Positions 4,388 to 38,773 of a stretch of DNA of 38,773 nt are shown here, piece by piece. Within the stretch, counting starts at the first letter, position 1. The number at the start of each line of letters is the position of its first letter. Source of the stretch: a virus; the IMG/VR virus record IMGVR_UViG_3300036715_000804, positions 1 to 38,773 of that record, one strand, 5' to 3'. Below the pieces are notes generated by a model. That model was not told where the DNA came from, searched no databases, and saw only the letters and a program-made list of their open reading frames with translations. The position numbers were made by a program, and so were the translations under genes.

Positions 4388-6414
4388 TGATGGAATTAGA
4401 AGCTGGTATGAAACCGCACGAGTTTTGGTCCAAGGAGATTGAAGCTGCGGAGAAGCGTCAGAAAGATTTCTGGAAAGATGGCGGTAAGATCGTTGAGAGG
4501 TTCCTAGATGAACGCAAAGAAGATGGCGGCGGTAATCGTCGCAACTCCGGCAACACGGTTATTCGTCTTAATCTATTCCATGCTAACGTCTCAACTCTTA
4601 TGTCTATGCTTTACGGCAAGGTTCCGGAGATTAGTAGCACCCGTCGTTTTGCCGACGCGGGGGACGACGTTGGCCGAATTGCGGCCGAAATGCAAGAGCG
4701 AATTCTCAATACCGACGTACAAACTCCTGGAGCATCTACCGGGGATATACTACGCGCGTGTCTTCAAGACAGACTTTTACCTGGACTGGGCACAGCTCGG
4801 GTAAGGTACGATTTCGGGACTAAGACTCACAAAGCTGAGGAGATGCATCCAGGCGAAGACGGTCAGATGGAATCGAAAGAAACTGAATACGAAGTTTTAG
4901 ACGATGAGGATGCCATCACGGATTATGTTCACTGGAGAGACTACCTGTGGGGGCACGCTCACATCTGGGCTGAGGTACCGTGGTCAGGATACAAGGTGTA
5001 TATGACCAAACCTGAGGCCATTGCACGATTCGGCACGGCGAAAACAGAGAAACTCCAGTTTAACCGTCGCAGCATAGAGACGAAAGAGGAAAATTCCACC
5101 AAAGAGCGCGCCCATCCATGGGATAAAGCCGAAGTTGTGGAAATCTGGTCGAAACCCGACAGAAAAGTCTATTGGTGGTCCAAGGATGCTGATGAATTAC
5201 TGGACGAACAGGAAGATCCATTGAAATTACGCGGCTTCTTCCCCAGTCCTGAGCCGATGATGGCTAACCCCACGACTACCCTGTGCTTGCCCCGCGCAGA
5301 TTTCAAAATTGCACAGGATTTGTACAACCAGATTGACATTCTGCAAACCCGCATCAGCATAATTACGCGAGCGGTGAAGGTTGTTGGCGTCTATAACAAA
5401 TCTTCCAAAGAAATTAAGAATATGTTCAACCAAGGCACTGAGAATGATCTCATTGCTGTGGATAGTTGGGCAGCGTTCGCCGAAAAGGGTGGGCTGAAAG
5501 GTCAAATTGACTGGCTTCCCATTGAAGAGATTGCAAACGTCCTTAAAACGCTGCAGGAAGTACGCGCACAGACTATAGAATTGCTCTATCAAGTCACGGG
5601 CATGGCCGACATACTGCGTGGGCAGAGTGATGAGTACGCAGCGGCCAGCAGCGACCAATTGAAAGCGAAATTTGCAAGTGTGCGAGTGCAGTGCTTGCAA
5701 GATGAGTTTGCTCGGTTTGCTAGCGACATAATGGGTTTGAAAGCTGAAATTATGCGTACCCACTTCGAAGTGGATACGATAATTAAGCACTCCAATGCCC
5801 ATTTCTTTCCTGAAGACCCCCAGGATGTTATGGCTGCGGCGCAGTTCCTGGTTGACCCCAGTAATGACATATTGTGGAGGGTTGAGATTAAGCCTGAGTC
5901 CATCGCTATGGTGGATTACGCTCAGTTAAAGTCCGAACGTACGGAGTTCCTTACAGCGATGGCTACATTCTTGCAGTCTTCTGCTCCTCTCATCGAAAAG
6001 GACCCCGCTGCCGCTCCATTCCTCATGGAGATGTTGAAGTGGTCCCTTGCAGGCTTCAAGGGTAGCCAGCAAATTGAAGGCATTATGGATAAGGCTATCA
6101 AGCAGATGATGGACAATCTCAAGCAACAGTCTGAGAACCCCCAACCTCCGCAGGACCCCCATTTGCAAGAAATTCAGGCCAAGGCTGCTGCAGAGCAACA
6201 GAAGATCGCAGCCAAGTCCCAGGCAGATATGAATAACATGATGCAGGACCACTACAACCAGCTCCAACAGATTACGGCTGAGACTGATATGAATAAGCAG
6301 AAAGAGCAGATGAACGCGTACTACAACGTGCTTGAAGCTCAACTCAAACATCACGCAACTTTGAAGGAGAAGAGTCATGAGGCGAACCTACGTCCAAAAC
6401 CCTCTAACGGGTAA
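4384..6414 (+). CDS. Portal protein
   Basis: A 676-residue protein immediately after TerL, the size of P22-type podovirus portals. It starts MMMELEAGMKPHEFW; residues 5-60 are charged helices. The middle is a typical portal body, including a stretch on residues 290-340 with NQIDILQTRISIITRA and QVTGMADILRG around 401-411. The last 90 residues are Gln- and Lys-rich and probably coiled coil (KAAAEQQKIAAKSQAD). The dodecameric ring forms the DNA channel and binds terminase during packaging and the tail adaptor later. Family-level identification rests on position, size and these patterns. Confidence 0.88.
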   Translation: MMMELEAGMKPHEFWSKEIEAAEKRQKDFWKDGGKIVERFLDERKEDGGGNRRNSGNTVIRLNLFHANVSTLMSMLYGKVPEISSTRRFADAGDDVGRIAAEMQERILNTDVQTPGASTGDILRACLQDRLLPGLGTARVRYDFGTKTHKAEEMHPGEDGQMESKETEYEVLDDEDAITDYVHWRDYLWGHAHIWAEVPWSGYKVYMTKPEAIARFGTAKTEKLQFNRRSIETKEENSTKERAHPWDKAEVVEIWSKPDRKVYWWSKDADELLDEQEDPLKLRGFFPSPEPMMANPTTTLCLPRADFKIAQDLYNQIDILQTRISIITRAVKVVGVYNKSSKEIKNMFNQGTENDLIAVDSWAAFAEKGGLKGQIDWLPIEEIANVLKTLQEVRAQTIELLYQVTGMADILRGQSDEYAAASSDQLKAKFASVRVQCLQDEFARFASDIMGLKAEIMRTHFEVDTIIKHSNAHFFPEDPQDVMAAAQFLVDPSNDILWRVEIKPESIAMVDYAQLKSERTEFLTAMATFLQSSAPLIEKDPAAAPFLMEMLKWSLAGFKGSQQIEGIMDKAIKQMMDNLKQQSENPQPPQDPHLQEIQAKAAAEQQKIAAKSQADMNNMMQDHYNQLQQITAETDMNKQKEQMNAYYNVLEAQLKHHATLKEKSHEANLRPKPSNG

Positions 6415-13551: not shown

Positions 13552-15160
13552 TTTTAATCGCGCAGTAGGGTCCAAGGCTCGCCCTGGCAAAGCCTCTGCA
13601 CAACCCATACCAATACCTGTTCCATATAGAGGGGTGAACACAACTTCTTCTCTTTCCATGCTCGCAGAAGATGAGTGCCACTATGCTTATAATATTCTCC
13701 CCAGCCAAGACGGATTCAAAACAAGACTCGGCACTTCTGAGTGGACGAATGGTGTCACGGGTTCCCCTAGGACTACTATTCCCTATCATGCTCTTTCTTC
13801 TACTGGGTCTGGTGATAAATTGTTCGTCACTGGTACTGACGGTATTTACGAAGTCACTACTAGTGGAGCAGGAGCAGCCACCAGAGTCTACAATTTCGTC
13901 ACCACCGGGGCAACTGCTGGGTACGGAAATTTTATCCAGTGGGGGACCGCTACCGGCGCTCAGTGGATTTTCTACGCAGACAGTGCCAACGGACTTTTAT
14001 CTTACGAAGCAGCTACGAACACCTGGTCTCCAGTTACAGGAATAACAGGGCTCAACGAATTAGATATTCGCTATGTGGCCATCCATAAACTTCGCATCTG
14101 GGTAATACTTAAAGATTCTCCTAACGGGTGGTACCTCCCCGGTGGCGCTATGGCGGGGGCGGCAACAGAATTCCAATTTGGCTCTAAATTCACTCACGGC
14201 GGTGATTTAGTAAGCGTACACACATTCACACGAGATTCTGGAAATGGGCCTGATGATTTATTTGTCGCTATTTCGCGTCAGGGTGACGTAATCATCTACC
14301 AAGGTGCAGACCCTTCTGCAGCAACTACGTTTTCAATCGTAGGAACGTGGTACGTTGGGGTGCTGCCTGATAGTCGTAAAGTCGCATTGGAATATTCTGG
14401 TGACATCTATATTTTGTCTATAAATGGGATTACTTCTCTTACGGAGTTGCTCCGCGGTACGGATGTTTCGGACAACTATAAGTCTGTCGTGGGTAAGATT
14501 ACCAATCTTCTGCGGTCACGTTTATCTACAGAATTATCTTCAGCAGGGTGGGAGTTGATCATGTTCCCCGCTGAGAATCTTCTTATCATTCAGTCCCCCA
14601 TACGCTCGGGGTCTACTGATCAATACTTACACTACTGTTTGAACACGGTGAACAAGGGATGGGGCTTCTTTCGTAACGTGCAATCTACTTCTATGGGGGT
14701 GCATAGAAATGAATTATTCTACACCCAGAGTAATGGAAGCGTGTGGCGCCTTAAAGAAGGTAACGATCAATGCACCATTACGAATCCTGTCGGAACTCCT
14801 GTTGAGTTTACGTTCCTTACTGCGTATTCAAACGCAGGCGCTCCAGGGGTTATGAAGATGCCTAGTCTTGCTCGCCCTGTATTCGTAGGCAGCCAAGCTC
14901 CTGAGTATGCTATTCAGGTTTTATTTGACTATGAACGGGGAGAGCTGAGTGTTTCTGGTTCTGGCGCTACTTCTGACTCTTCGTTGTGGGACACAGCCTT
15001 GTGGGATAGTGCTATATGGGGCGGTGATGAGGTGTTTGACGAAACACAGGGCGTCGGAGGCGTGGGCTACGCTATCGCCGTGGCTATGCGGGGCCGCACC
15101 ACAGCGCGCCTCACACTCGCTGAGATAACTCTGATAGGAATGGTTGGGGGATATCAGTGA
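13544..15160 (+). CDS. Tail nozzle / stabilisation protein (P22 gp10-like)
   Basis: A 538-residue protein. I place the start at ATG 13544 (MVDFNRAVGS) inside the ATGGTTGA overlap with the adaptor stop; the longer start at 13493 would read deep into the adaptor gene. Repeated beta-propeller-like segments (KLFVTGTDGIYEV at about 90-100, DLFVAISRQGDVIIYQG around 240) and TWYVGVLPDSRKVALEYSGD are typical of podovirus tail hub proteins. It should close the tail after packaging and carry the fibres. It overlaps the next gene by 4 bp. Confidence 0.8.
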   Translation: MVDFNRAVGSKARPGKASAQPIPIPVPYRGVNTTSSLSMLAEDECHYAYNILPSQDGFKTRLGTSEWTNGVTGSPRTTIPYHALSSTGSGDKLFVTGTDGIYEVTTSGAGAATRVYNFVTTGATAGYGNFIQWGTATGAQWIFYADSANGLLSYEAATNTWSPVTGITGLNELDIRYVAIHKLRIWVILKDSPNGWYLPGGAMAGAATEFQFGSKFTHGGDLVSVHTFTRDSGNGPDDLFVAISRQGDVIIYQGADPSAATTFSIVGTWYVGVLPDSRKVALEYSGDIYILSINGITSLTELLRGTDVSDNYKSVVGKITNLLRSRLSTELSSAGWELIMFPAENLLIIQSPIRSGSTDQYLHYCLNTVNKGWGFFRNVQSTSMGVHRNELFYTQSNGSVWRLKEGNDQCTITNPVGTPVEFTFLTAYSNAGAPGVMKMPSLARPVFVGSQAPEYAIQVLFDYERGELSVSGSGATSDSSLWDTALWDSAIWGGDEVFDETQGVGGVGYAIAVAMRGRTTARLTLAEITLIGMVGGYQ

Positions 15161-15603
15161 AGTTCAAAGCCTTTGACGTTATGGACTACGAACATGTTGA
15201 CTATTTCAAGAAAGGGGGTCTACATGGAAACCTCTACATTTCTTCTGGTACTCGCGGTATTGTTGCCTATACTGATTCTGGATTCATAATGGGCATGGTA
15301 TTGTTTGACAACTGGACCCACACCGCTGTTTTCGGGCACATTGTTGTCAGTAATCCAATGTGCCTTAAGCACGGGGGTTTGATTACTGAGGCTATGGATT
15401 TTGTTTTCAACACTCTTGGGTTACAGTATCTCATGGGGTCAGTACCCGCTAGCAAAGAGAAGGCTATTTCTTTTGAGAAGCGTATTGGATTCAAAGAAGT
15501 TTATCGTCTTAAAGATGGGTTCCAGAAAGGAACTGATTTGATTTTCATGCAGATGACTCGCGACCAAGCAGTCTTCCTGCCCAAAGAACAGAGGGCTGCG
15601 TAA
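15157..15603 (+). CDS. GNAT acetyltransferase-like virion-module protein
   Basis: A 148-residue protein with a GNAT-type pattern: FGHIVVSNPMCLKHGGLITEA as a reduced acetyl-CoA-binding loop and GSVPASKEKAISFEKRIGFKEV as the C-terminal strand-helix. The canonical RxxGxG loop is degenerate (NPMCLKHGGL), so catalysis is doubtful. Its position after the nozzle gene matches T7 gene 13, whose product is also GNAT-like and needed for internal core assembly. I infer an assembly role. Confidence 0.65.
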   Translation: MKFKAFDVMDYEHVDYFKKGGLHGNLYISSGTRGIVAYTDSGFIMGMVLFDNWTHTAVFGHIVVSNPMCLKHGGLITEAMDFVFNTLGLQYLMGSVPASKEKAISFEKRIGFKEVYRLKDGFQKGTDLIFMQMTRDQAVFLPKEQRAA

Positions 15604-21984: not shown

Positions 21985-22224
21985 TCAATTCTCCTCGGTT
22001 ATTTCCATTGATTCAACAACTGGGAACAGGTCATACGTACCCATAGTGGCGATGAATCTATTCTTCACTAGCTCTTTTATATACTCGGGATTGTCGTGGG
22101 TGCTGTGTACAGAGCAGCTTGTATGAAACGTACCTCGTATCACCATAAAGTAGTGGTGCCCTTCATAGATCTTGATTGACGTACCCTGGGTGGGCTCTGG
22201 CGCACCAGGATGTATGTCTTCCAT
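21985..22224 (-). CDS. Small protein of unknown function
   Basis: A 79-residue protein beginning MEDIHPGAPEPTQGTSIKIY if started at ATG 22224. That start overlaps the DUF3310 gene by 62 bp and has no clear ribosome site. A later ATG at 22146 (MVIRGTFHTS) lies just after the DUF3310 stop and is the alternative. The strand IYEGHHYFMVIRGTFHTS runs across the later start, which favours the longer form. No family recognised. Confidence 0.5.
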   Translation of the reverse strand: MEDIHPGAPEPTQGTSIKIYEGHHYFMVIRGTFHTSCSVHSTHDNPEYIKELVKNRFIATMGTYDLFPVVESMEITEEN

Positions 22225-22585
22225 GGGGGTACTTGCAATCGGGGCACAAGATATCGAGGTGAGTACTCCCCACATCTTTCTGGCTATTTCTGAATAACTC
22301 AGTCGATTTAGGGTCTTGGTAGGGGCAGTTGGTTTCTTCCGGGTTACCAGCTCCACAATACGAGCAATTAGCTTCATTGGGGTACTCCAGTTCAATAAGT
22401 TTTTGGATAAAATGAGCGGCTTTCTCTAGATCCTGCCTACCATTCTTCTCCTTGTATCGTTCAATGTACTTAGTGGCCGATCCTATCAGGTAGCCCGGAC
22501 CGAACAGCCGGTATATTCTATCCCAGTGCTGTTCACCACCCTTCTGATAATGGCTTCCGCCTATCTGTGTTTCGTTTGCTGACAT
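22163..22585 (-). CDS. DUF3310 protein, nucleotide-kinase-like, with zinc ribbon
   Basis: A 140-residue protein. Residues 8-68 match the DUF3310 (PF11753) pattern: IGGSHYQKGGEQHWDRIYRL, then SATKYIERYKEKNGRQDLEKA. Phage annotation commonly links this family to T7 gp1.7, a kinase for dTMP and dGMP. The C-terminal half adds paired cysteines (CSYCG, CPYQ, then CPDC and a late SWC), probably a zinc ribbon. Given the base-modification genes upstream, it could phosphorylate a modified dUMP; that is inference. Ribosome site GGGAG lies 6 bases before the ATG, and a promoter and 5' stem-loop lie just upstream. Confidence 0.75.
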   Translation of the reverse strand: MSANETQIGGSHYQKGGEQHWDRIYRLFGPGYLIGSATKYIERYKEKNGRQDLEKAAHFIQKLIELEYPNEANCSYCGAGNPEETNCPYQDPKSTELFRNSQKDVGSTHLDILCPDCKYPHGRHTSWCARAHPGYVNQDL

Positions 22586-22635: not shown

Positions 22636-23145
22636 TTAAATGAGTTGGGCGATTAAATCTTCAGCCTTCGCCCTAAACCTGCTATCTAGAGGCTGGTTCT
22701 TTAAATTATCCTCGGCGTGGCGGGCTATTTTATCAATAATATCCTCCACGGTTCGGTTCCCCATACTGCGCTCGTGCATACACTTTAGACCCAACTCCAC
22801 ACTGTCCGCAAACTTGAGTATGTTTACTTCGTCATTAGAAAGTATGTAATCGGGAAAATGAATGTTTGACTCTTCGTGCAGCAGCACTTCCATTTTTATG
22901 AGGGCTTTCTTCAGTTCAGGACTAACCCATTTAGCAGTCGCGGGCACGTCCCCCGTGCTTCGCTCGGCTACATCATGGCACAGCGCAGCGGCCAACAAAT
23001 TCCCGCTTGGTATCTCCGGGTAGTAGAGGTACATGATTATTCCTGCCACGTTCGCGCTATGGTGCCCGATGGTATCCTCCCGTATGAGGGACTCCGTATG
23101 GAACCGCTTCACGTTCATAGCCTCACGAAAATACTTTAAGTTCAC
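22636..23145 (-). CDS. HD-domain 5'-deoxynucleotidase (YfbR-like)
   Basis: A 169-residue HD-fold phosphohydrolase: GHHSANVAGI (His28/His29), CHDVAE (His57-Asp58-Glu61) and KFADSVE (Asp114) supply the metal ligands. YfbR-type enzymes remove phosphate from deoxynucleoside monophosphates. It starts at GTG 23145 with AAGGAG 7 bases upstream and overlaps the thymidylate-synthase-like gene (GTGA), so the two are co-translated. In this context it may hydrolyse dTMP so that a modified pyrimidine replaces thymine; substrate preference cannot be read from sequence. Confidence 0.82.
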   Translation of the reverse strand: MNLKYFREAMNVKRFHTESLIREDTIGHHSANVAGIIMYLYYPEIPSGNLLAAALCHDVAERSTGDVPATAKWVSPELKKALIKMEVLLHEESNIHFPDYILSNDEVNILKFADSVELGLKCMHERSMGNRTVEDIIDKIARHAEDNLKNQPLDSRFRAKAEDLIAQLI

Positions 23146-24128
23146 TTCATTCTCCTTTCAACCCATGCGTGACAGGCGCGTGCCCAGTCCGGCGATTGTA
23201 TTTGATCACAGTATTTTAAAGACTCTTTGTGTGCTCCTCCTTTGTAGCACTGCCACGCGCTGTACATGGGGACCGCCACCCGATTGAGGAATACGGTCTG
23301 TTTTGGGTAAATATCGGCTGGATTATTGCAGAATCGTCCCACATCCGCAAGAAATTGCTCGCTCTCTTCTGGTTGATCAAGCAACAGTTGGAAATCATCC
23401 CAGTCTGCTCCCTCGTACCATTCTTGGTCAGCTTTTGAATCCTCATACAGTTCAGTCAAAGTATTCTTTAAATTTTCGGGGTAGCAGTGAAAGTTGTTGC
23501 TGAGCGTGTACATGGCTCCCATATTCATACCAACAGAACGGGCAACAAACTCGTGTAGGAAGCTCATGTGTACGAAATTCGCACCGTACAGCCCCCAGAT
23601 GATATCGTTGGATCTGTTGCACACAGTCATATTCAACCCGTACGGATCTGGGTCAAAATAGATATGTGTGTTACAGGGGAAGTCTTTACCTTGTTTTCCC
23701 AGGTCAAAATCGCAGTCCCACATCTGCAGCACGCAGCGGCGGCTAGTGGGGTCGTACAGGAGAGTCTTGATTACCTCCTTAAGTTGATCTTGATGGAACC
23801 AGTTGCGCCAGCGGTGCCCGTATGCGCCGTGGAATTTAACCCCGTCATCGCTAAACGTAGATATGTGGCTGTTGAACTGCGCCACAAACTCTACATCTCT
23901 TCGGCCCGCTAGCATCCACATAGCCTCCATAAAATGGAAGAACGGGTTAGCACCTCGCAGAGGGCTGAATAGCACCCGTTGTCTAGGTTCCGTAATTTCA
24001 GTTACTACAGGACCACGTATTCGGTGAACTGGTCCGTTCCTGCTGTCCTGGGCGACTCCGTTATTTCTCATCACAGCCAGGGCTTGCGTGTACGCGTCGT
24101 TTACTCCAGTTCCGTATATCACCCTCAT
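23142..24128 (-). CDS. Thymidylate synthase homologue, probable dUMP hydroxymethylase
   Basis: A 328-residue protein of the ThyA superfamily (ThyA itself is about 264). Visible active-site residues are Cys152 in DFPCNTHIYF, Arg172-Ser173-Asn174-Asp175, Asn184 in WGLYGANF and His214/Tyr216 in NNFHCY. Asn184 favours dUMP over dCMP. Against ThyA the Asp-to-Asn spacing has one extra residue (DIIWGLYGAN), and PCH is PCN. This variant resembles phage enzymes thought to make 5-hydroxymethyl-dUMP. ATG 24128 follows the upstream stop by 1 bp with GGGGAAG as ribosome site. A plain thymidylate synthase is the alternative. Confidence 0.78.
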   Translation of the reverse strand: MRVIYGTGVNDAYTQALAVMRNNGVAQDSRNGPVHRIRGPVVTEITEPRQRVLFSPLRGANPFFHFMEAMWMLAGRRDVEFVAQFNSHISTFSDDGVKFHGAYGHRWRNWFHQDQLKEVIKTLLYDPTSRRCVLQMWDCDFDLGKQGKDFPCNTHIYFDPDPYGLNMTVCNRSNDIIWGLYGANFVHMSFLHEFVARSVGMNMGAMYTLSNNFHCYPENLKNTLTELYEDSKADQEWYEGADWDDFQLLLDQPEESEQFLADVGRFCNNPADIYPKQTVFLNRVAVPMYSAWQCYKGGAHKESLKYCDQIQSPDWARACHAWVERRMK

Positions 24129-24129
24129 C

Positions 24130-24999
24130 TCACTTCCCCCTATAAATTCGTTTGCTGCGCCCGGTGCCCTCTTTGATACGCATATACTTAGAGAATTCAC
24201 ACAGACAGTTTTGCAGGTCTTGGTTACAGATTAGCGGTACGTGTTGAAGCGCCCCCCCTCTATGGAATATCTCATTCCGTATGTAGTCTATGTTGTACGC
24301 AAAATCGCGCTCACTAATTGCTCGTTCCGGCGGCTGGCCGAACCAGTAGTTCATTCCCTTCTTGCTGCCTGGGCCGCTGGCTACGAATTTGTGCCAGTCG
24401 GCCGCGCCCGCTAACGGGTGGCCGATTGTGTTTTTCAAATCAGCAATCACCTGGGCGGCCAGGAAACTACCTAGGCCATCCGTCTTCATCAATCTAGCGT
24501 GCCACGCGCCGCAGGTAGTGGGGATGCCAATTTCCTCCACGTCTACCTTCGCCCACCCCTGCTTCCATACGTCGTTGGCTACGCGGAACACATAATCCAA
24601 CTTGTCCATCTTCACGCCGCAGGTGGTTATCAAGTAGGCCCCGCTGAATACCTGCTCGTTGTGCTGCCGTAGCTGCTCTACCACCGCTCGCATCCCTGGT
24701 ACGTCCCAGTCGTATGGGTAGCCCATAGCGCTCAGAGTTTCGGGCCTATTGAACATGCGGGCCAACACCAGGGCAGGCACTAGGTTGTCCGCTGCGGCTT
24801 TCTCCTTTATCTTTTTATACCCCACCCATTCGTCCCGTATGTACTTCGTAACTTTGTCGTCCTCCCGGCGCACATTGGTGAAGTACGTGTTTTGAAAGAT
24901 GGGGTCTTCTGACCAGGGCTTAGGTGCGCCCGTTGCTTTTTCACAGAAGATGTTCCACCGCTCTTCAATCCAGTACGTGAATAGTTCTTTGTTTGTCAC
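24130..24999 (-). CDS. 5-hmdU DNA kinase / thymine pyrophosphorylase family (HMUDK_hel-like)
   Basis: A 289-residue protein read from GTG 24999, which overlaps the glycosyltransferase stop (GTGA), with GAGGG upstream. The N-terminal pattern FTYWIEERWNIFCEK, then PWSEDPIFQ (28-36), then NVRREDDKVTKYI (42-54) is the hallmark of the alpha-glutamyl/putrescinyl thymine pyrophosphorylase group, whose members include 5-hydroxymethyl-dU DNA kinases. Later motifs are VFSGAYLITTCGVKMDK and GLGSFLAAQVIADLK. These enzymes activate hydroxymethyl-uracil in polymerised DNA with phosphate or pyrophosphate. Family identification is from memory of these motifs. Confidence 0.75.
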   Translation of the reverse strand: MTNKELFTYWIEERWNIFCEKATGAPKPWSEDPIFQNTYFTNVRREDDKVTKYIRDEWVGYKKIKEKAAADNLVPALVLARMFNRPETLSAMGYPYDWDVPGMRAVVEQLRQHNEQVFSGAYLITTCGVKMDKLDYVFRVANDVWKQGWAKVDVEEIGIPTTCGAWHARLMKTDGLGSFLAAQVIADLKNTIGHPLAGAADWHKFVASGPGSKKGMNYWFGQPPERAISERDFAYNIDYIRNEIFHRGGALQHVPLICNQDLQNCLCEFSKYMRIKEGTGRSKRIYRGK

Positions 25000-25796
25000 T
25001 GCACATCCCTCTTGGCTTTGCCAGCTTTGTACATCTGTTTCCACTGCACCCGCAGATCCACTCGTTCGTCCCCCATCCACTTAGCCTGTTTGGGGCGCTT
25101 AATAACTGCCTGGGCATAAGGGCCAAACTGCTGTGCGACCCATCGAACCGCTTCTTCCTGCATGGCAGGGGTACGGTATAGGCTGCACCCGCCCGGTGCT
25201 TGGCAGCTGCCGTGGTCCTGCACGTAGCTGGTCAGCAAGGCGTTGGGATACCCTTGGCTGAGCAGGGTGCAGTTGAGAATGACATCGGCCAGGATGGGGA
25301 ACTGGTCCACACGCGGAGCGGTCTTATTGGGGAATAGGTCCAGATTCACACCTTGTATGCAGATCACCTTTCCATTGGTCACGTACGGCAGCTTCGCTAG
25401 GTGCCCCATCTGGCGCGGGTGCATCCCCACCAGCGGGAAATCGTCCAACAGGTCTTCCATCATGGCCCACATACGAGCGAAATCTTCTTCGTCTGTCATT
25501 TTCAACAACTGTTGTGTTCCCACTACTCGTTTTGAAAACCATAAGTCGTCATCCATAATAATGAATTTACGGCTATCCCCTGCGCCTTGGTCTAGCAACC
25601 ATTGAAATTTCTGGCTGTAGTTAGTCACACTGGTTGGAGCTTCCATTACGTCGCACATGGCCCCGTAGTAATCTTCATATGATTGCTGCTCCCCCGCGCT
25701 GCATATAACCGTAACAGCAGGTCCTCTTTCCAAAGGTATGCTGTTCAAGGTGTGCACCTTGCCAGCGCGCCCCCGAGACATTATGTATATGTTCAT
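24996..25796 (-). CDS. Glycosyltransferase of the TET-associated type (TAGT-like)
   Basis: A 266-residue protein from ATG 25796, with GGAGG 7 bases upstream; the longer frame upstream crosses a terminator and is not used. The N-terminus MNIYIMSRGRAGKVHT and the DxD-containing motif KFIIMDDDLWFSKR (78-91) fit GT-A-fold enzymes of the TET-associated glycosyltransferase group, predicted to act on hydroxymethylated bases in phage DNA. A Cys-rich CQAPGGCSLYR occurs in the C-terminal third. It is the first gene of the modification cassette. The transferred sugar cannot be inferred. Confidence 0.7.
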   Translation of the reverse strand: MNIYIMSRGRAGKVHTLNSIPLERGPAVTVICSAGEQQSYEDYYGAMCDVMEAPTSVTNYSQKFQWLLDQGAGDSRKFIIMDDDLWFSKRVVGTQQLLKMTDEEDFARMWAMMEDLLDDFPLVGMHPRQMGHLAKLPYVTNGKVICIQGVNLDLFPNKTAPRVDQFPILADVILNCTLLSQGYPNALLTSYVQDHGSCQAPGGCSLYRTPAMQEEAVRWVAQQFGPYAQAVIKRPKQAKWMGDERVDLRVQWKQMYKAGKAKRDVQ

Positions 25797-28999: not shown

Positions 29000-30808
29000 C
29001 TAGGCGCACGCCTCCAAATCAAACCAGTTCGCCCCTACAAAGCCCTCACTTCGCATGGGGCAGTCACACACTTCTTTGTCCATGGCCTCTCGAAGGATAG
29101 CCATGCTGCCTTCCCAATTATCTTCTGGGGCGCTTTCGTTGATTTCGTCGTGAACGGTAGCCAGGAACACATCGTCGGGGGCTTTGTTGTCCCACCACGC
29201 ACAGATGCTATCTTTCGTTTGGTCCGCGCTGCTGCCTTGGATAAGATAGTTTAGCAGCTTATACGCGAACTCCACCCTGCGCCCGTTAATGATCTTGGGT
29301 GGTTCCACGTAGTATTCCCGCCCACCCCACGTCCGTATGCTTTGTCCGGACTTACCCCTGCGGTTCACTAATTTCTGTAGCTTCTCTACATCAGGGAATG
29401 CTTTAAGGTAGCCCGACTTAATCAGGGCTGCTTCGTGGTTAGGTCTGCCAAGCTGCTCTGCCAAGCTATTGACCCCGCTGCCGTACACGATGGAGAAGGC
29501 TGTTATCTTAACGTCCTTGCGGGGAAAGAGAATGTTGACGAGTTCCTCAATGAGGAGCATAGCTGCCTCGTGGGGATCCAAGCCTGGGTTGTCCTTGTAC
29601 GCTTGTAGCAGCACACCGTCAGCAAAGTGTGCCAGCCACCTTACCTCCTGGCTGGAATAGTCCCGCTTGAGCCAGCGGTGTCCTAACTCAGGCAGCAGAT
29701 ACCGGCGCATGAGCGGGGGCGGGGGCAGTCCTTTGGGAATAACTATCTTCAGCTCGTTAGTCACGTTCATTAAGGATGGTTTACTCGCCGATAGACGACC
29801 TGTACGACTACCTCTACTGTCTCCCCCCTCGCGGTCATGTGTTCTAACTTGATTCCAGGAAGTGTGCAGTCTGCCGTCCGAATTTGACAGCGAAGCCCAC
29901 GGTCTTGCAAATGTTTGGAGACAGCCTGCCATAGCTCCCCGGTATCGAAGAAGGGCGAGGATTGCTGGGTCATTTATTGCTTTCTCCAAATTGTCTTTGC
30001 TGGTGCTTCGTCTTCCGGTGGCAGTGAGAACCCACTGACCAACGAGGCCAGCAGCTTCAAGTGCATCCGCAAGCTCGGCGGTTTTTCCGAAGTCAATACT
30101 GTCTCGCTTAAGTTTCTTAAGAAGCATTTTCTCAACTTTGACCAATGCTTTTTCGTATGCTGCCAAATCTTTTCCGAGGCGTTCAACATCTACCCGCACT
30201 CCTTTAAGCTCGCTGTAGTACGTTATCGGCATCAGCCGCTGCTCGCGCTGGTACGCATCCCACATAAGGTTCTTACCGATTTGTGGAGCCAGCAACTCAA
30301 ACAATCCCCAAGTACGGTCTGTGTCACTACAAGCATATTCCCCCACTAAGTCGCCCGGCGCAGCGTATATCCACGCCCCTGCTTCTTTACGGCTGGAGCA
30401 TGGGGTGTGTTCCATAATCCAATCTTGCAGCCGGTCCTGTTCTTCTGGGGGCAGATTGAGCAGCCGCTCCGAGTTAGGTTTCAGGCTCAGGTTGTCACTG
30501 TACGGATCGTTAAGAAACAGAAGATACATGGTGTCGTGTATCTTTTCCCAGTCCGGCATGGGGAAGTCGAACCATTTGAGCGCCACGCTGATGTCAAACT
30601 TGGCATTGTGCATCAACAAGTCTTTGTCCCACACTGCGGCCAGGGCAGCGCGGGCTTGGTCAAACGTGCAGTTGTTCTTGGTGGGGTGCCCCCATGCGTA
30701 ATACTTACTCTTACCTTTCCCTTTTTTAATTGACACACCCACAGGTTTGGGTGGATTAAACGAAGTGTTGCCGTTGATCGGCATAGTTTCAAAGTCTACT
30801 GTAATCAT
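29000..30808 (-). CDS. Family A DNA polymerase
   Basis: A 602-residue replicative polymerase. The 3'-5' exonuclease has VDFET (Asp5, Glu7), HNAKFD (67-72) and YACSDTD (Asp162). The polymerase domain has TGRLSASKP (336-344), motif A KRDYSSQE (Asp383), motif B RKDVKITAFSIVYG (Arg430, Lys434, Phe438, Tyr442) and motif C TVHDE (His553, Asp554, Glu555). Phe438 matches E. coli Phe762, a residue associated with virulent phages. There is no 5' nuclease domain. The ATG overlaps the small upstream gene's stop (ATGA). Length is a little under T7 gp5 (704). Confidence 0.95.
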   Translation of the reverse strand: MITVDFETMPINGNTSFNPPKPVGVSIKKGKGKSKYYAWGHPTKNNCTFDQARAALAAVWDKDLLMHNAKFDISVALKWFDFPMPDWEKIHDTMYLLFLNDPYSDNLSLKPNSERLLNLPPEEQDRLQDWIMEHTPCSSRKEAGAWIYAAPGDLVGEYACSDTDRTWGLFELLAPQIGKNLMWDAYQREQRLMPITYYSELKGVRVDVERLGKDLAAYEKALVKVEKMLLKKLKRDSIDFGKTAELADALEAAGLVGQWVLTATGRRSTSKDNLEKAINDPAILALLRYRGAMAGCLQTFARPWASLSNSDGRLHTSWNQVRTHDREGGDSRGSRTGRLSASKPSLMNVTNELKIVIPKGLPPPPLMRRYLLPELGHRWLKRDYSSQEVRWLAHFADGVLLQAYKDNPGLDPHEAAMLLIEELVNILFPRKDVKITAFSIVYGSGVNSLAEQLGRPNHEAALIKSGYLKAFPDVEKLQKLVNRRGKSGQSIRTWGGREYYVEPPKIINGRRVEFAYKLLNYLIQGSSADQTKDSICAWWDNKAPDDVFLATVHDEINESAPEDNWEGSMAILREAMDKEVCDCPMRSEGFVGANWFDLEACA

Positions 30809-34058: not shown

Positions 34059-34257
34059 CGTCTTCATCCTCAATTACGTTCACACGCTCGTTAAACACCA
34101 GCAGCGCAGGGCCCGTGACGGCGCGGCATCCGCATTCAATACAGGCGTACCCCTCAGCATCAGGTTCCACCCCCGGCTGGTTGTACCCGCAATTGAGGCA
34201 GTACCCGCTGCACTCATCATCTGCTTTTTCTAGCTGAGACACAGACAGTGTAATCAT
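34051..34257 (-). CDS. Zinc-ribbon small protein
   Basis: A 68-residue protein from ATG 34257, in an ATGA overlap with the pentapeptide gene. Four conserved cysteines, CLNC and CIEC, spaced as in a zinc ribbon, lie at about residues 20-43; a strongly acidic tail (NVIEDEDDE) follows. It could bind a nucleic acid or a host polymerase subunit. Specific function unknown. Confidence 0.65.
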
Positions 34258-34976
34258 TTCCACCACCCCTTTAGCTTCACTATCGTGCGCAACATATCCA
34301 GCCGCGCTAAACATTCCATCCGATCTCCGTTACTTTCGTAATTTTCTCCGTACCACGCCGTAGCTTCGTTGAAATCAGTCCATTCGTGGCAGCCAGCCCG
34401 ATACACTACCCCACTTTCTTTCTGCCACGCCCAAAATCTGTAGCCGCGTTCATCTTGTCCAGCGTCTATTATATAGTCCCCATACAGATCGGCCTTAGAC
34501 AGATTGGCCCCAGACAGATCGGCCCCATACAGATTGGCCCCAGACAGATTGGCCCCATACAGATTGGCCTTAGACAGATCGGCCCCATGCAGATTGGCCC
34601 TAGACAGATCGGCCCTAGACAGATCGGCCCTAGACAGATCGGCCCTATACAGATTGGCCCCAGACAGATTGGCCCCAGATAGATCGGCCTTAGACAGATC
34701 GGCCTTAGACAGATTGGCCCCAAACAGATCGGCCCCAAACAGATTGGCCCCAGATAGATCGGCCTTAGATAGATCGGCCTTAGACAGATTGGCCCCAAAC
34801 AGATTGGCCCTATACAGATTGGCCCCAGACAGATTGGCCCCAGATAGATCGGCCTTAGACAGATCGGCCCCAGACAGATCGGCCTTAGACAGATCGGCCT
34901 CAGACAGATTGGCCCCAGACAGATTGGCCCCCGGCACTTCTAAAAATAGAGTACCGTCTATTTTGTATATTTTCAT
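34254..34976 (-). CDS. Pentapeptide repeat protein
   Basis: A 240-residue protein from ATG 34976 ([15 protein letters not shown]). Residues 16-165 are 30 consecutive pentapeptides of the form A(N/D)LSx, giving a right-handed quadrilateral beta-helix. Such rods can mimic DNA and bind gyrase (as Qnr and MfpA do); here an anti-host or protective role is inference only. A conserved C-terminal domain follows ([20 protein letters not shown], then [20 protein letters not shown]). The start overlaps the upstream stop (ATGA). No signal peptide is seen, so it should act in the cytoplasm. Confidence 0.85.
34482..34931. repeat. 15-bp tandem repeats encoding the pentapeptides
   Basis: About 30 copies of a 15-bp unit (agacagat(c/t)ggcc plus two or three variable bases), almost identical at DNA level. 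Such an array can gain or lose units by slippage. It also keeps several other frames open, so overlapping open frames here are not evidence of genes. Confidence 0.9.
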
Positions 34977-35155
34977 TCTGATTTCTGCCTCACTATGCTT
35001 ACGATTTGGGATGCCCAAATGACTGGGCTAGGGTGCGCCGCGCGATAGTCTGTAAAAGCGTCAAACGGATTACGTCCTTCCATTTCTATCGTGTATTCCT
35101 GCCAGTTGGCGCCGATGTAGGTACGATACACTGCCACATACTTATGTTTTCGCAT
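34973..35155 (-). CDS. Small early protein of unknown function
   Basis: A 60-residue protein from ATG 35155 ([20 protein letters not shown]), with GGAG 6 bases upstream. A small alpha/beta domain with a basic start. It overlaps the upstream 58-residue gene by 14 bp and the pentapeptide gene by 4 bp. Together the two short genes look like host-takeover proteins, by position only. Confidence 0.6.
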
Positions 35156-38634: not shown

Positions 38635-38773
38635 GGGAATACAACCGACGGTTGCCAGCTTTGCTGTTTTGGTTGCCAGATAAAGGGTGCTGGCAACCTG
38701 GGATGTCAAAGCGTAAGTGCTTGTTTTACATGGCAAAGGGGTGAATCGGGTTGGCAGTGGTTGGCCCGGTGGG
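38635..38773. repeat. Terminal redundancy, right copy
   Basis: This is the second copy of the window start: offset 38,634, exact for 119 bases (to 38753), then about eight mismatches in 20 bases. It also duplicates the first three iterons (38650, 38671 and 38690), which should not be counted twice. Confidence 0.9.

Follow-up and report, generated by a model that had tools for sequence, protein, structure and literature searches.

A virus gene cassette predicted to glycosylate 5-hydroxymethyl-deoxyuridine, and the apparent exchange of the enzyme beside its HMUDK_hel partner

A glycosyltransferase in the place of a kinase

What does a phage attach to 5-hydroxymethyl-deoxyuridine (5hmdU) when the place of the 5hmdU kinase of hypermodified phages is taken by a glycosyltransferase? 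The question is raised by four neighboring genes in IMG/VR virus record IMGVR_UViG_3300036715_000804, the whole of which (38,773 bases, hereafter the window) was analyzed. They encode a TAGT-family glycosyltransferase, a protein of the family HMUDK_hel (also termed aG/PT-PPlase1; HEL below), a thymidylate synthase (TS) homologue and an HD phosphohydrolase. Our answer, to which we assign a probability of roughly 0.6, is that this cassette makes glycosylated 5hmdU, a base-J-like thymine, in virion DNA with no phosphorylated intermediate, HEL being a partner that different transferases share.

One transferase class per HEL locus

Three queries against IMG/VR supplied the relatives of HEL. Loci entered the set best-first from the query profiles, so the share of a class in it does not measure abundance. 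The phages closest to the window have the gene order polA-nuclease-SNF2-X-HEL-TS-(HD)-DUF3310. X, which usually overlaps HEL, is of one of four kinds: TAGT, PF18748-like kinase, GT-B-like enzyme or a further family. Exactly one transferase class was found in 141 of 155 non-redundant HEL loci and two classes in none of them (TAGT 91, kinase 40, GTB 7, GTB2 3, none of the four 14). The GTB family gives weak matches to Pfam GT4/GT1 models; the Pfam matches of GTB2 are not meaningful and this family is GT-B-like by eye only. Several of the 14 loci without a class bear other GT4-like or PIG-L genes, and nine of the 14 lack both TS and a transferase. At the level of whole records (n = 52) the kinase profile PF18748 occurs in seven and the TAGT profile PF20691 in 30, and no record has both. 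Genes of the amino-acid pathway of thymine modification are present at 29 of the 40 kinase loci versus 0 of the 101 others (Fisher p 2e-21, ignoring relatedness).

Several loci have unusual gene content. L131 and L148 are related loci that have none of the four classes. A GT4-like glycosyltransferase and a PIG-L-like de-N-acetylase stand beside HEL in L131 (3848-5510), and a PIG-L-like de-N-acetylase adjoins it in L126 (2164-2901). The HEL+TS locus L148 (3-3022) has a GT-B-like fragment (by eye), PIG-L (PF02585), an APS kinase (PF01583) and a sulfotransferase-like gene (PF13469, below cut-off); a de-acetylated, sulfated sugar on thymine is possible there. Four records of 38.7-41.2 kb (L026, L067, L081, L095) have kinase, HEL and TS without PF18724, the amino-acid:DNA transferase, and in these the phosphorylated base may itself be the final modification. 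In L068 a radical-SAM-like open reading frame (ORF; 4937-5995, CxxxCxxC-type motif by eye) lies between TAGT and HEL. Divergent HELs also occur on bacterial or archaeal genome contigs (L201-L211), nearly all without TS or a transferase nearby; a study from 2026 reports a validated 5-hydroxymethyluracil kinase domain in defence, together with a predicted aGPT-Pplase domain (PMC13092281).

Exchange of partners on the HEL tree

Does each HEL lineage keep to one kind of partner? A tree of 83 HELs requires at least 14 changes of transferase class, and one of 139 HELs at least 16, of which at least six are between kinase and the rest. On well-supported branches alone there are at least eight changes of the TAGT label and at least four of the kinase label. 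Sister HELs can have unlike partners, as in the pairs L069 (GTB) and L099 (TAGT), L098 (kinase) and L108 (TAGT), and L102 (GTB2) and L105 (TAGT).

The HEL proteins themselves do not divide in this way. When 39 kinase-linked HELs were compared with 101 others, no class-specific column was found, and the same positions are at least 95% conserved in both groups: R14, F40, N42, R45, D48, R81, N84, A121, Y122, K133, F179, D187, D201, GPG 209-211, G215, C267, E268 and K271. (K62-E66, which also appeared in the list of conserved columns, is a gap artefact and was not used.) Shared residues with no column that separates the classes fit one constant HEL job beside an exchangeable catalyst. HEL goes with the P-loop kinase in phages of the M6/YuA type but with other transferases elsewhere, so the decorating enzyme looks like an exchangeable module. 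Across about 150 relatives, the enzyme that decorates the base, whether sugar- or phosphate-adding, has been exchanged time and again beside one constant partner, which suggests a plug-in design for disguising DNA. A bolder extension, to which we would give somewhat less than even odds, is that HEL is a modular platform: a constant 5hmdU reader that docks GT-A, GT-B-like or P-loop kinase enzymes interchangeably, so that a one-gene swap changes the group on thymine, with variants such as L131 and L148 giving de-acetylated or sulfated sugars.

Pathway genes missing from the window

The two ends of the record are 98% identical over 129 bases (positions 1-129 versus 38635-38763). IMG/VR classes it as linear, but this overlap makes a complete genome of about 38.6 kb probable, and the absence of a gene from it therefore carries weight. 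Across the genome no match at E<=10 was obtained for the P-loop 5hmdU kinase (PF18748) or for PF18724; the latter was detected in YuA, Epa43, TM26, Vi01 and phiW-14. Among the proteins scanned with Pfam there is no pyridoxal phosphate (PLP) or radical SAM enzyme. No TET/JBP oxygenase was matched by Pfam in the proteins of the cassette and replication module, the structural and small ORFs having been scanned at most with PHROGs.

The original prediction, that radical SAM, PLP and acyl-transfer enzymes are all absent, thus stands for the first two among these Pfam-scanned proteins. It is not strictly true of acyl transfer, since a GNAT-like acyltransferase gene (phrog_4470) lies at 15157-15603, in the tail module and far from the cassette. 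The associated claim, that the final group is unlike the known amino-acid-derived thymines, is supported.

The four cassette proteins

The assignment of all four genes to families was upheld by profile searches against Pfam and PHROGs. The TS homologue matches PF00303 (Thymidylat_synt) at 1.2e-20 and phrog_5131 at 8e-105. Over its full length it shares 45% identity with YuA gp17 and with the Clover synthase, and 27% with the ViI synthase. The closest solved structure is the CMP 5-hydroxymethylase MilA (1.6e-18; a true TS scores 1.1e-9). The catalytic cysteine is C152, and N184 occupies the site of TS Asn177, the asparagine that reads uracil. T4 dCMP hydroxymethylase (gp42) differs here: the T4 type has Asp for Asn at this base-selecting site, whereas the window has Asn184. 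Because of this uracil-type Asn and the 45% identity to its counterpart in YuA, which is related to the hypermodified phage M6, the protein is likely to be a dUMP 5-hydroxymethylase. The 5-hydroxymethyl-dUMP step proposed earlier is likewise supported, as far as sequence goes, by this residue and by kinship to synthases of the M6/ViI type.

The TAGT protein scores 28.0 bits (2.6e-6) with PF20691, for which the Pfam cut-off is 27.5, and matches phrog_842 at 2e-30. Its AlphaFold2 (AF2) model has a pLDDT of 94.9, and a fold search returned GT-A glycosyltransferases as well as models of viral TAGT/beta-glucosyl-HMC-alpha-glucosyltransferases. DDD (82-84), R10, GG 202-203 and R208 are invariant among 48 relatives; the profile, the GT-A fold and the DxD motif of the family are all present. 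The sole PADLOC match was weak and spurious. From sequence and model we predict that this enzyme transfers a sugar onto 5hmdU in DNA.

HEL matches PF18723 (1.2e-37, 130 bits versus a cut-off of 25) and no other Pfam family, and phrog_2396 at 9e-45. Pfam places 5hmdU DNA kinase (HMUDK) activity in the separate P-loop family PF18748; in YuA the gene for gp13, a PF18748 member, overlaps that for gp14, a PF18723 protein. The earlier description of this gene as HMUDK-family is thus right as to the helical family, but the helical protein stands alone and the P-loop kinase part is missing. A P-loop hidden in a 316-aa ORF was considered and ruled out, PF18723 being its only match and no Walker motif being seen. 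The AF2 model of HEL (pLDDT 92.5) comes nearest to PaMx11 gp46 (8z2n), the 5-phosphomethyl-deoxyuridine (5-PmdU) glycinyltransferase, with a VIA Z of 10.9; 8-oxoguanine glycosylases follow at a VIA Z of up to 9.7, the value for an archaeal one. Foldseek alone, with a best E of 0.27, gives nothing significant. A base-flipping fold, of the kind of HhH-GPD DNA glycosylases, is plausible, but chance can bring helical models to such Z values. PDB sequence searches with the HEL profile, YuA gp14 and YuA gp13 gave no significant match, and PADLOC assigned neither HEL nor the HD protein to a defence family. HEL is predicted to be a DNA/5hmdU recognition partner common to different transferases.

The HD protein matches PF12917 (YfbR-like) at 2.5e-15 (57.1 bits versus a cut-off of 25.9) and phrog_6047 at 2e-26, and alignment with YfbR (2paq) indicates that the HS, HD, E, GD and AD residues are retained. 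Only part of the relatives have an HD gene like that of the window. It may be a nucleotide-pool enzyme, for example one that removes dTMP.

A predicted route and its alternatives

Gene anatomy and comparative pattern are matters of observation; every catalytic step of the following route is a prediction. Judging from its family and active site, the TS homologue would convert dUMP to 5-hydroxymethyl-dUMP, while the HD phosphohydrolase might deplete competing nucleotides, probably dTMP. Kinases outside the cassette, presumably those of the host, would then yield 5-hydroxymethyl-dUTP for incorporation by the phage DNA polymerase (PolA). Finally TAGT, as its fold, DxD motif and family suggest, would move a sugar from a host nucleoside-diphosphate sugar to the 5-hydroxymethyl group in DNA, with HEL binding the DNA and helping to present 5hmdU to its partner transferase.

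Might HEL instead be the catalyst? The "pyrophosphorylase" idea makes it a transferase that acts at the flipped base before or after addition of sugar or phosphate, like the 5-PmdU glycinyltransferase. Its best structural neighbor is indeed a catalytic enzyme of the pathway, and many of its polar residues are invariant (R14, N42, R45, D48, N84, K133, D187, D201, E268 and K271). That step, however, is already performed by a separate amino-acid transferase family, PUGT, which takes in YuA gp10 and the solved 5-PmdU glycinyltransferase and to which HEL has no detectable sequence relation. HEL moreover stands beside both sugar and phosphate transferases and has no residues specific to either class, which ill suits a one-product enzyme; we regard this idea as unlikely. 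Much less probable is that TAGT acts on 5-hydroxymethylcytosine (hmC) as in T-even phages, with a TS homologue that either hydroxymethylates dCMP or is an ordinary thymidylate synthase. The TAGT name stems from other modification systems, and a T6-like TAGT probably adds a second glucose to glucosyl-hmC (PMC13390438), but Asn184 is of the uracil type where T4 gp42 differs, the TS homologue groups with the YuA/ViI synthases, and HMUDK_hel is tied to thymine hypermodification. The least probable alternative is the route of the original prediction, in which phosphorylation of 5hmdU in DNA precedes its further modification, here by way of a host or unrecognised kinase. HMUDK_hel does adjoin a kinase in M6/YuA-type phages; the lack of PF18748 in this genome and the mutual exclusion of kinase and TAGT in all loci and records examined nevertheless speak against it. 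Glycosylation, which had been called merely possible, is now the better supported decorating step.

Several observations weigh against glycosylation by TAGT with HEL as a shared partner. The TAGT score lies only 0.5 bit above the Pfam cut-off. Foldseek gives HEL no more than a weak fold match, and middling Z values can arise by chance with helical models. We know of no chemistry for any TAGT+HEL member. The uncultured phage ctUhy936 has TAGT-TS-HD like the window but lacks HMUDK_hel, and TAGT may therefore not need HEL. Conversely, nine HEL loci in the second survey and most of the 16 on bacterial or archaeal genome contigs are without a nearby transferase. Preparations of 5hmdU DNA kinase phosphorylate DNA in vitro, apparently with no partner (PMC7653180; PMC6457204), about 20% of the 5hmdU in SP8 DNA being phosphorylated in one such reaction (PMC7653180); HEL may therefore be dispensable or catalytic.

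Layout of the cassette and its neighbors

The four leftward ORFs lie exactly where they had been placed, with the GTGA, 1-nt and GTGA junctions (translational coupling) that had been claimed (Table 1). The array is not a matter of chance, since divergent contigs repeat its gene order; in L012, for example, it is TAGT-HEL-TS-HD, the first three proteins being 52-64% identical. A megablast search of INPHARED phages with the cassette region gave no match. The DUF3310 neighbor is kept in most relatives. Elsewhere, the window encodes a pentapeptide-repeat protein (34254-35018; PF00805, 6.8e-60).

Table 1. Genes of the cassette and adjacent replication-related region
Feature	Position	Strand	Remarks
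TAGT-family glycosyltransferase (GT-A fold)	24996..25796	-	ATG start
HMUDK_hel (aG/PT-PPlase1; HEL)	24130..24999	-	GTG start; 4-nt GTGA overlap with TAGT
Thymidylate synthase (TS) homologue	23142..24128	-	ATG start; 1-nt gap after HMUDK_hel
YfbR-like HD 5'-deoxynucleotidase	22636..23145	-	GTG start; GTGA overlap with TS homologue
DUF3310 protein	22163..22585	-	PF11753 1.4e-8; directly downstream of cassette
Family A DNA polymerase (PolA)	29000..30808	-	PF00476 1.1e-42; syntenic with cassette

Comparison with known systems

The co-occurrence of the four gene families is already known. In marine pelagiphages of the HTVC023P type, TS, aG/PT-PPlase1 (HMUDK_hel), a 5'-deoxynucleotidase and a putative beta-glucosyl-HMC-alpha-glucosyltransferase lie in one region near the DNA polymerase; that text gives neither a mechanism nor partner exclusivity (PMC9599517). 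Neither the swap pattern nor any other statement of partner exchange beside HEL was found in the open literature searched. Nor did these papers report that 5hmdU is glycosylated in the DNA of phages, a modification stated to be absent as of 2019 (PMC6449724). If our reading is true, a base-J-like modification is made from a minimal gene set in a common group of environmental phages of roughly 40 kb, the HMUDK_hel/aG/PT-PPlase1 family gains a testable role, and the exchange of a single gene alters the decoration of phage DNA and hence its exposure to restriction enzymes.

Among cultured phages, Brevibacterium phage LuckyBarnes (L002; host Brevibacterium iodinum) has the arrangement TS-TAGT-TAGT-HMUDK_hel, with two TAGTs and no HD gene at the locus; its TS, of 517 aa, has an extra C-terminal part. 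With the T-even phages, in which hmC is glucosylated (T6 TAGT), the window has in common a TAGT-family enzyme for phage DNA, but its substrate base is predicted to be of the uracil type and HMUDK_hel is an added partner. The predicted product, a sugar on 5-hydroxymethyluracil in DNA, resembles base J of kinetoplastids. To make base J, T is oxidised in DNA by JBP1/2 and then glucosylated (PMC6449724), whereas in the window the hydroxymethyl group would be made on the nucleotide; no TET/JBP was seen among the Pfam-scanned proteins specified above.

The closest comparison is with the Pseudomonas phages M6, YuA and PaMx11. They have in common with the window the TS-like dUMP hydroxymethylase, HMUDK_hel, a DUF3310 neighbor and PolA nearby, and an HD phosphohydrolase too, YuA gp18 carrying an HD motif. 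Of the amino-acid-type pathway (M6, ViI, phiW-14), the window has the putative TS-fold dUMP 5-hydroxymethylase, recognized by sequence, and lacks PF18724. It differs from the M6/YuA type in that a glycosyltransferase is present instead of a P-loop 5hmdU kinase and an amino-acid:DNA transferase, with neither a PLP nor a radical SAM gene among the Pfam-scanned proteins.

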